From contig NZ_JAJQRG010000004.1 of the NCBI RefSeq assembly GCF_021228235.1, forward strand, positions 248,001 through 312,000: 64,000 bases of DNA, given 5' to 3'. This document shows positions 6,401-64,000 of this stretch, in pieces. The position numbers were made by a program, and so were the translations under genes. A model generated the notes under the pieces. It ran no database searches, had not been told where the DNA came from, and worked only from the letters and a program-made list of their open reading frames with translations. Numbering within the stretch: the stretch's first letter is position 1; the number at the start of each line of letters is the position of its first letter. The stretch is from Pseudophaeobacter flagellatus. GTDB taxonomy: Bacteria > Pseudomonadota > Alphaproteobacteria > Rhodobacterales > Rhodobacteraceae.

Positions 6401-6860
6401 GACCTTGACAACGGTGCTAGGGCTGGCGCCTTTGATGTATGAAAGCTCGCAGCAGGCACAGTTCCTGAAGCCAACGGTGATCACCCTGGTCTATGGCTTG
6501 GGCTTTGGCATGTTTCTGGTTCTGTTGGTGGTGCCGGCTCTGGTGGCAATCCAGCAGGATGCGGTGCGCCCCCTGACGGCGTTGCGCCGGGCGCTGCATG
6601 GCGGCAAGCAGGCGGGGTTGCACTGGTTGGTGCTTGCTGTTGGCTTTGTTCAGGTGGGCTGGCTGGCGGCGACGCTGGGCTGGACCATGGCCCGGGGAAC
6701 AATACTGCCGCTTCTGCGGGATCTGTTGCCGGGGCTGGCGGCCTTTGATCCGCTGCGGGCTGCGCTGTTGCTGGCCCTTGGCGGCATCGCAGTGCTGACA
6801 TTGCTGGCCTATCTGATTGCGGCGCTGGGCTATGGGCTGCGCCTGCGTCGCCAAGCCTAG
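3456..6860 (+). CDS. RND efflux transporter permease subunit (AcrB/MMPL superfamily)
   Basis: A 1134-residue inner-membrane proton-drug antiporter. TM1 is at about 20-38 (NLFLVVLLLLGAAAIP), then a large periplasmic porter domain, a TM2-6 bundle (about 345-480), TM7 near 530, a second periplasmic loop, and a TM8-12 bundle (about 885-1035). The TM4 proton-relay pair is D401-D402 in the stretch GIVVDDAIVVGE, as in AcrB. The matching repeat in the second half is GIIINDSIVLVTT. After the usual end (about 1040) there are two further hydrophobic segments, at about 1055-1075 and 1100-1128. The gene starts 3 bp after the adaptor stop, so the two are cotranscribed. The type resembles environmental heavy multidrug RND pumps; the substrate cannot be told from sequence. 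Confidence 0.9.
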   Translation: MRDLSRPAGGLLSYFTRHRTAANLFLVVLLLLGAAAIPNMRAQFFPDVIVENVTVGVIWEGAGPEDVDGAIVQALEPALLAVDGVEESTATSREGSASILLDFEPGWDMARAADDVQSAVDAITTLPEDAEDPTVRRGAWRDRVTDVVISGPLAAGQLGLFADELVVRLFEVGVTRTTIRGLAAPRTLVEVPSANLITHDITMREIANAIAAEVDADPAGDVTGANTRVRTGREKRSPEEIEGIVLRNNADGSVLTIGDLAQITREGVDRKRSYFVGDNPAMSIRVDRADMGNAIAIQAQVQQVVDALQRTLPQGVTAELIRTRAERISDRLDILIDNGLMGLGLVVALLFLFLNSRIAFWVAAGIPAAMFAAVALMYAAGITINMISLFGLIITLGIVVDDAIVVGEHADFRVRRLGESPMQAAENAARRMAMPVFAATLTTIIAFFGLTAIGGRFGDLIRDIPFTVIAVLAASLAECFLILPHHMAHALTHAQKQHWYDWPNRIVNRGFRWARDHLFRRLMALVVRARYVVLAGAVTILASQMALFISNEVQWRFFNAPERGSVTGNFAMVEGATRADTLAMMQEMQRAAAATGAAFSSRYGGVDPVSFVIAEIGGNAGRGLSGVEAKDTDLLGGLSIELIDADLRPEYSSFAYVAALQEEVVHHPLVETVSFRSWRSGPGGDALDVQFYGADVQVLKSASQDLKTALLRYPEVSAVEDNLAYDKEEVVLELTPQGQALNFTIDSLGRALRARLNGIEAATYPEGPRSAEIRVELPRDELSADFLERSLMRTPSGIYVPLADIVSVTQRTGFSTVRRENGIRVISVTGDISEDDPTRAAEITKALEEEILPDIASRRQVEWRLSGLSEQESNFLSDARTGLVLCLAGIYLVLAWIFASWTRPLVVMAIIPFGLVGTIWGHYVWDVPLSMFTVIGLLGMTGIIINDSIVLVTTIDEYAETRGLVPSIVDGAADRLRPVMLTTLTTVLGLAPLMYESSQQAQFLKPTVITLVYGLGFGMFLVLLVVPALVAIQQDAVRPLTALRRALHGGKQAGLHWLVLAVGFVQVGWLAATLGWTMARGTILPLLRDLLPGLAAFDPLRAALLLALGGIAVLTLLAYLIAALGYGLRLRRQA

Positions 6861-56433: not shown

Positions 56434-57627
56434 TTACCCCTTAACCGCTTTTACGATCTTTTCGGCGCCGTCAGACAGGTTGTCGGCTGCGATCACGTCA
56501 AGACCGGAGGTGTTGATGATCTCTTTACCGGCTTCCACATTGGTGCCCTCAAGGCGCACAACGAGCGGAACCTTCAGGCCCACTTCTTTCACCGCAGCAA
56601 CAACGCCCTCGGCGATCACATCGCAGCGCATGATGCCGCCAAAGATGTTGACCAGGATGCCTTTGACCTGTGGGTCCGAGGTGATGATCTTAAAGGCCTC
56701 GGTGACTTTCTCTTTGGTAGCACCGCCACCCACGTCGAGGAAGTTTGCAGGCTCAGCGCCGTACAGCTTGATGATGTCCATGGTGGCCATCGCCAGACCC
56801 GCACCGTTGACCATGCAGCCGATCTCACCGTCGAGCGCGATGTAGTTCAGGTCATACTTGGATGCTTCCAGCTCTTTGGGGTCCTCTTCGGTGGTGTCGC
56901 GCAGTTCGGCCACATCGGCGTGGCGGTACATGGCGTTGCCATCAAAGCTGACCTTGGCGTCGAGCACTTTCAGATCACCGGTGTCGGACACGATCAGCGG
57001 GTTGATTTCCAACATCTCCATGTCTTTGTCGACAAAGGCTTGATACAGCTGCCCCATCAGTTTGACGCACTGCTTGATCTGCTGGCCTTCAAGGCCCAGC
57101 GAGAAGGCGATGCGACGGCCGTGGAACGCCTGATAGCCGGTGGCCGGATCAACGCTGAAAGACAGGATTTTCTCAGGAGTTGCCGCTGCAACCTCTTCGA
57201 TGTCCATGCCACCCTCGGTGGAGCAGACAAACGAGATGCGCGAGGTCTGGCGATCAACCAGAAGCGCTAGGTACAATTCGGTCTGAATGCCCGAGCCCGC
57301 TTCGATGTAGATGCGGTTGACCTGCTTGCCCGCGGGGCCGGTCTGATGCGTGACCAGGGTGCGGCCCAGCATTTTCTTGGCTTCCTCGGCGGCCTCTTCA
57401 ACCGATTTGGTCAGGCGGACACCGCCCTTTTCGCCGGCCCCGGCTTCTTTGAAGGTGCCTTTGCCGCGACCGCCGGCATGGATCTGTGCCTTGACCACCC
57501 ACAGCGGGCCGTCAAGCTCCCCTGCGGCGGATTTGGCTTCGTCGGCCTTCAAGACGATGCGCCCGTCGGAAACCGGCGCTCCGTAGCTGCGAAGAAGGGC
57601 CTTGGCCTGATATTCGTGGATGTTCAT
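56434..57627 (-). CDS. sucC: Succinyl-CoA synthetase subunit beta
   Basis: A 397-residue ATP-grasp protein: [42 protein letters not shown] (nucleotide-binding), the [20 protein letters not shown] hinge, and the C-terminal [20 protein letters not shown] that packs on SucD. The ATG at 57625-57627 is the first gene of the operon read leftward. A pair of palindromic operators lies 112-143 bp upstream. The next gene starts 5 bp after its stop. Confidence 0.96.
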
Positions 57628-57738
57628 GAGAAACTGTCCCGTCTGGCTTCAATTATCTTTGTCATAACGCCGTCATATGGCGAATCTTTAAAGGCTTTTT
57701 TGAAGGCTTACGGGGAAATGATGAAGATTTTCGAGTTT

Positions 57739-57769
57739 TGTGATCACAGCTTTCCAGCGTGTGATCACA
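57739..57769. promoter_or_regulatory. Tandem palindromic operator pair upstream of sucC
   Basis: Two perfect 10-bp palindromes TGTGATCACA at 57739-57748 and 57760-57769, with 21 bp between their centres (two helical turns). The pair is 112-143 bp upstream of the sucC start, between mdh and sucC. A matching pair precedes sdhC at 63733-63763. Confidence 0.72.
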
Positions 57770-57934
57770 AACATTCAGTAGCTCAATTTGTTTGATTCGT
57801 GATGATCGGAAAAAGGCGACAAAGTGACTTATCCGCAAATGCGGCGCGACACTGGCCGCTGGCGGGCCTACGGGCACTGAAATTCGCAGATTTGCTTGGA
57901 GCAGATCGCAGGTGATGGCAAACCAGGCGGCCGG

Positions 57935-57967
57935 AAAAAATGCACGCTCCGAGGTAGGAGCGTGCAT
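57935..57967 (-). terminator. Terminator after mdh
   Basis: Minus strand: perfect 11-bp stem ATGCACGCTCC / GGAGCGTGCAT, loop TACCTC, followed by TTTTT. It lies 56 bp past the mdh stop and separates mdh from sucC transcription. Confidence 0.93.
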
Positions 57968-58022
57968 TGGGATCTTGTTGCACTGGCCTGTTTGGTAGAA
58001 CAGATCAGCCCTGTTGTTCGAC

Positions 58023-59364
<1,342 letters not shown>

Positions 59365-63732: not shown

Positions 63733-63763
63733 TGTGATCACTGGGCTGCAGCCTGTGATCACG
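63733..63763. promoter_or_regulatory. Tandem palindromic operator pair upstream of sdhC
   Basis: Sites TGTGATCACT (63733-63742) and TGTGATCACG (63754-63763) share the GTGATCAC core. Centres are 21 bp apart, as in the pair before sucC. The pair lies 114-144 bp upstream of the sdhC start. A T-rich tract (TTTTTTT) follows about 9 bp downstream. Confidence 0.7.
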
Positions 63764-63876
63764 AAATGCGTTTTTTTGCAAATCTGGTCAAATTACCGCA
63801 GAAATTTACCCGCTGTTCGGGTGACAGGACGTAAAAAACCGCTAAAACGGCTTCAGCTAACTGGAAAGGAGCCAAC

Positions 63877-64000
63877 ATGGCCGATGTAAATCGGGGCAAT
63901 CGCCCGCTTTCGCCACATTTGTCGATCTATCGCCCGCAGATGACCTCTATGTCCTCGATCCTGACACGGATCACGGGCAATGCGCTTATCGTCTCGGTGC
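63877..64000 (+). CDS. sdhC: Succinate dehydrogenase cytochrome b556 subunit, N-terminal part (gene runs off the window)
   Basis: The first 41 residues are in the window: MADVNRGNRPLSPHLSIYRP, then QMTSMSSILTRITGNALIVSV. RPLSPHLxIYRPQxTSxxSIxHRxTG is the SdhC start, with the conserved Ser and Arg near the quinone pocket. Here His in SIxHRITG reads Thr (SILTRITG). The usual heme-ligand His lies further on, outside the window. AAGGAG lies 8 bp upstream of the ATG. sdhD, A and B would be expected downstream. Confidence 0.93.
   Translation, partial: MADVNRGNRPLSPHLSIYRPQMTSMSSILTRITGNALIVSV

Follow-up and report, generated by a model that had tools for sequence, protein, structure and literature searches.

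The window, the whole stretch of 64,000 nucleotides of Pseudophaeobacter flagellatus that was analysed, contains sucC and, at its end, the beginning of the succinate dehydrogenase operon, and a pair of short palindromes precedes each of the two loci (Table 1). The copies before sucC are identical, those before sdhC read TGTGATCACT and TGTGATCACG, and in both pairs the sites are 21 bp apart, centre to centre. An earlier sequence-only reading had described two matched pairs of perfect, identical 10-bp palindromes; the pairs are present where it placed them and the description holds for the sucC copies (TGTGATCACA twice), whereas in the sdhC copies the palindrome is perfect only across an 8-bp core. 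Measured from the start codons (57627 on the minus strand for sucC, 63877 on the plus strand for sdhC), the proximal centres lie at 116.5 bp (sucC) and 118.5 bp (sdhC) and the distal centres at 137.5 and 139.5 bp, in agreement with the 117/119 and 138/140 bp given by that reading.

Table 1. Genes, putative operators and predicted promoter elements in the window
Feature	Positions	Strand	Remarks
sucC, succinyl-CoA synthetase beta chain	56434..57627	-	ATP-grasp_2 + Ligase_CoA
TATGAC, candidate -10 element of sucC	57661..57666	-	weak; 20 bp from TTTAAA
TTTAAA, candidate upstream promoter element of sucC	57687..57692	-	weak; 51 bp from proximal centre
putative sucC-proximal operator TGTGATCACA	57739..57748	.	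sequence and conserved twin sites
putative sucC-distal operator TGTGATCACA	57760..57769	.	21 bp from proximal, centre to centre
putative sdhC-distal operator TGTGATCACT	63733..63742	.	
putative sdhC-proximal operator TGTGATCACG	63754..63763	.	
GTGACA, predicted -35 box of sdhC	63821..63826	+	62.5 bp from proximal centre; most position-locked 5-mer in 69 relatives
TAAAAC, predicted -10 box of sdhC	63843..63848	+	16 bp past -35; motif GTGACA-N16-TAnnnA
sdhC, first gene of succinate dehydrogenase operon	63877..64000	+	runs past window end

The core GTGATCAC occurs seven times in the window against 0.74 copies expected from shuffles, three of these being the single copies noted earlier at 6477, 46186 and 55261, and two pairs are observed at a centre spacing of 16-26. 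Genome-wide (4,290,342 bases, 4.29 Mb), the only pairs at a spacing of 19-23 are those of sucC and sdhC, which bears out the earlier remark that the core is paired at these two places alone. The genome holds 166 copies of the core, a number that might invite an explanation by chance; such an explanation has a negligible probability, as no pair arose when the window was dinucleotide-shuffled 300 times and both place and spacing are conserved. A CRP site has the form TGTGA-N6-TCACA; here the half-sites abut with a spacer of 0, and a CRP site was rejected, as it had been in the sequence-only reading.

Conservation of the twin sites in the family

The family set comprised 295 genomes, one per genus and including that of the window, and at least one twin pair was detected in 267 of them when centre spacings of 16-26 were allowed. 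Ninety-one pairs were examined, namely the two of the window, two of a Rhodobacter sphaeroides-like genome and the rest among the matches listed; part of them came from a class-wide draw limited to spacings of 19-23, and four were from outside the family. Forty-four of these pairs lie before sucC, 39 before sdhC and eight before neither. Among the 83 sucC and sdhC pairs the spacing is 21 bp in 74 and 20 bp in nine, and the outer TTT and AAA flanks are conserved, while the 13 bases between the sites are little conserved. The conserved 21-bp-spaced pair that had been proposed as a check in the Rhodobacterales is thus found across the family. A second scan, of named genomes and at spacings of 20-21 only, gave at least 85 pairs at at least 80 loci; among the matches listed, 37 pairs were before sucC, 30 before sdhC and 18 before neither, the last being from outside the Rhodobacterales in 14 cases and from Rhodobacteraceae in four (three at the edge of a stretch). 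The class-wide draw gave a pair in nine of 337 genomes, five of the nine belonging to the family of the window. Two pairs were noted at positions 1501-1529 of their loci: L057 (genome G042) carries a third pair, spaced by 21 bp, with neither sucC nor sdhC alongside, and in L061 (G177) the pair stands directly past mdh, as expected, and an adjoining sucC was not found there.

The folding of RNA is strong for each pair (z -5.5 and -4.4), its sites being mutually complementary, and the pairs might accordingly act as RNA hairpins or terminators, an alternative raised in the earlier reading. It is disfavoured and we regard it as extremely improbable: the exact sequence and not just its complementarity is kept in the 267 genera, where a stem would permit compensatory changes, the sdhC pair is upstream of the predicted promoter, and the pair appears to be lost with the regulator considered below. 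On the sucC side, a scan of 57600-58030 for an intrinsic terminator (GC-rich stem with a T run behind it) returned no terminator-like site. A GC-rich hairpin of 12 pairs with a trailing T run does occur at 57934-57968 on the minus strand, between mdh and the sucC pair (fold z -4.97), and is likely the mdh terminator, although it is absent from the output of the terminator scan.

AkgR as the probable regulator

RSP_0981 (AkgR), a protein of the GntR family in R. sphaeroides, is a predicted regulator of sucCD, sdh and the 2-oxoglutarate dehydrogenase genes (PMC4344238, in excerpt), and GTGATCAC is reported second-hand among the sites of AkgR, which is termed an activator (PMC6365646, in excerpt). 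The statement of the sequence-only reading that no regulator with such an operator was known is therefore superseded, AkgR being tied in these excerpts to the same targets and to the same core. The genome of the window encodes 15 FCD proteins, among them P0001 (contig C23:134916-135578), which has GntR and FCD domains, is the probable AkgR ortholog of this genome and has a copy of TGTGATCACA immediately ahead of its start. The R. sphaeroides-like genome G051 (reaction-centre L 100% identical) carries two pairs and no more, one at sucC and the other at sdhC. Its single ortholog of P0001 (E <= 1e-20; 76-83% identical) is located 0.75 kb beyond sdhB, a location that fits RSP_0981 adjoining sdh RSP_0974-6. 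Position beside sdhB, family and targets agree between this ortholog and RSP_0981 (for the targets, the excerpt of PMC4344238).

At an ortholog cut-off of E <= 1e-60, which was picked after the list was seen, the 295 genera divide into 23 with neither pair nor ortholog, five with the ortholog only, seven with the pair only and 260 with both. The ortholog is missing in 23 of the 28 genomes lacking an exact pair versus 7/267 of those having it (Fisher p 1.7e-23, phylogeny uncorrected). The same four counts are 20, 8, 6 and 261 at 1e-40 and 14, 14, 3 and 264 at 1e-20, and a control with reaction-centre L gave 15/28 versus 105/267 (p 0.16).

Another GntR/FCD protein could be the main binder, for instance the paralogue L013 (G000, the genome of the window, contig C12, about 272 kb), which is 39% identical to P0001, has TTGATCAA upstream of its gene and TTTGATCATA after it, and whose presence is associated with the pair (p 4e-6), more weakly than that of the P0001 ortholog. 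The counts for L013 at E <= 1e-60 are 26, 2, 132 and 135; it was rejected since many of the genomes with the pair lack it (132/267 versus 7/267 for the P0001 ortholog), and a main binder other than AkgR is very unlikely. L013 may be a sister regulator whose motif has shifted.

Among the genomes with an ortholog and no exact pair, G040 and G291 have a one-mismatch pair in the right place, and G147, G155 and G166 are incomplete or without a usable sucC. G114 (rated 100% complete, 320 contigs) has the pairs and only a weak ortholog match (2.4e-29), which counts against the AkgR reading. A search of the 28 pair-less genomes with three mismatches was too noisy, and inspection of the sucC upstream regions worked better. 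The 24 regions examined, on the sucC side only, comprise two exact pairs (G114, G256), two one-mismatch pairs (G040, G291), one locus where the start was not found and 19 with neither ortholog (E <= 1e-60) nor exact pair, whose best candidates have 3-7 mismatches of 16. The best candidate of G017 has three mismatches, at 134 bp and a spacing of 20. These patterns suggest that the twin pair has been lost along with AkgR. Also among the 19, upstream of sucC in L163 (G157), a four-mismatch pair at 113 bp with a spacing of 21 accompanies a weak AkgR match and is perhaps a decaying relic. At L154, a locus from a different family (f15), the gene immediately downstream of a pair (991-1020) is 29% identical to AkgR.

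The features expected of the AkgR regulon, namely an ortholog in the genome, the motif GTGATCAC, sites before sucC and sdhC, and site and regulator present or absent together (23/5/7/260 of 295, phylogeny uncorrected), were all found here, and each pair is very probably a twin operator for AkgR, a transcription activator of the GntR/FCD family. The earlier proposal of a dimeric regulator common to sucC and sdhC, with both sites on one helix face, is supported by the conservation and the co-occurrence.

The core is also found at akgR itself. An ortholog match was obtained in 278 genomes; in the best 30 loci, which represent the nearest relatives, GTGATCAC lies within 260 bp upstream in 29, and 26 carry TTGAC-N12-15-GTGATCAC, with N13 in 23 of these; at the start of the R. 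sphaeroides-like akgR (G051) a site was looked for and none was found. As the site falls inside the core promoter of akgR, self-repression at this promoter is likely. Elsewhere in the genome of the window, a perfect TGTGATCACA (L189 1501-1510; C12:214924-214933) abuts the ATG of a SCO1/SenC-family gene, a possible further target of AkgR.

Helical phasing of the putative operators and the predicted sdhC promoter

A motif search at the sdhC loci returned GTGACA-N16-TAnnnA, GTGAC being the most position-locked among the 5-mers tested (46/69 loci inside a 4-base window). Counting only GTGAC[AT] boxes more than 40 bp from the operator and taking the first one, the box was found in 59/69 loci and was absent from the other ten; its distance to the proximal operator centre is 52 bp in one locus, 61-64 in 46, 72-73 in five and 82-84 in seven, the values clustering near 52, 62.6, 73 and 83 bp only. 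Extra boxes occur in L134 (another at 19) and L098 (another at 90). The box had been identified on an initial set of 39 loci, and 25 of the 30 loci of a second set proved to have it as well (17 modal, eight at 72-73 or 82-84). The 13 non-modal distances fall at whole turns, with none of 200,000 uniform draws as close; the best-fitting period is 10.5, broadly 10-11, and the distance from box to ATG is without such a period (R 0.21 vs 0.89). Mean identity of the DNA between operator and box is 32% among 36 modal loci, so the distance lock is not copied sequence. On a weakly supported SdhC tree (57 of the 59 loci, 28 of 54 inner branches open), the four spacing states need ten changes. Whole-turn spacing at sdhC is what helix-face-dependent activation predicts and agrees with an activator that must face the polymerase.

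At sucC, CGTTT(A) occurs at roughly the TTTAAA distance from the operator in a minority of relatives and TATA at about +76 in some; position-locked elements there are only weak, and hence a phased sucC promoter is not claimed.

It is conceivable that AkgR binds the pairs yet represses, or that the second site serves a different protein; repression by a tetramer that occupies two 10-bp palindromes is described for the related FCD protein Atu1419 (PMC7797058, in excerpt). This we consider unlikely, given that AkgR is termed an activator (PMC6365646, in excerpt), that the sites stand, as those of an activator would, a long way upstream of the promoter predicted for sdhC and keep helical phase with that promoter, and that the likely repressor position is found at akgR instead.

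Activation by AkgR from the pairs could proceed as follows. At sdhC, two AkgR dimers, or one tetramer, would occupy one face of the DNA, two helical turns apart, some 97 and 118 bp ahead of the start site as estimated from the promoter boxes, and would assist RNA polymerase from this side. The sucC pair would act likewise from about 88 and 109 bp, an estimate also made from promoter boxes and less certain. At akgR, the lone site just behind the TTGAC box would let AkgR repress itself. In this way sucCD/2-oxoglutarate dehydrogenase would come under common control with succinate dehydrogenase. With somewhat better than even confidence, the twin operator may be viewed as a fixed activation module in which two AkgR dimers, held two turns apart, would act on the polymerase from one face only, so that in evolution its position relative to the sdhC promoter could change only by whole turns (52, 62.6, 73, 83 bp); one site within a promoter would repress, and the number and place of the sites alone would decide whether the same protein activates or represses.

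Comparison with known systems

A conserved twin operator belonging to an already known regulator is of a known kind. The family-wide layout, the loss with AkgR, the site at its own promoter and the whole-turn spacing appear to be new; a literature search on AkgR/RSP_0981 and the motif, covering sources in excerpt, found no description of the twin layout or the helical phasing. The findings tie a conserved, overlooked DNA layout to a known regulator of central metabolism in the majority of the genera sampled from a large family of marine and soil bacteria, and provide a natural experiment on helical phasing in which the operator was moved in many genera, apparently by whole turns only. Genomes that have lost AkgR control should also be predictable from sequence alone.

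The AkgR regulon of R. sphaeroides is alike in regulator family and targets (PMC4344238, in excerpt), in the motif GTGATCAC (PMC6365646, in excerpt) and in the same two twin pairs of the R. sphaeroides-like genome, and differs in that TGTGATCACA at the start of akgR is present in the genome of the window and absent in the R. sphaeroides-like one. The nearest solved sequence relative of P0001 is McbR (PDB 4p9f; E 2e-21), the likeness being one of sequence match only. PS417_07240 of Pseudomonas simiae, a GntR-like protein 32% identical to AkgR, is also a proposed binder of GTGATCAC, but concerns deoxyribonate catabolism and has one palindrome near the start codon (PMC6365646, in excerpt). According to the excerpted account of Atu1419 of Agrobacterium fabrum (FCD family, VanR group), this protein resembles AkgR in binding a GT-type 10-bp palindrome, in a site between -10 and -35 of its own promoter and in that one tetramer can hold two sites, whereas it represses another pathway through the palindrome ATGTATACAT, with sites 190 bp (or 109 bp) apart as against 21 bp here (PMC7797058).
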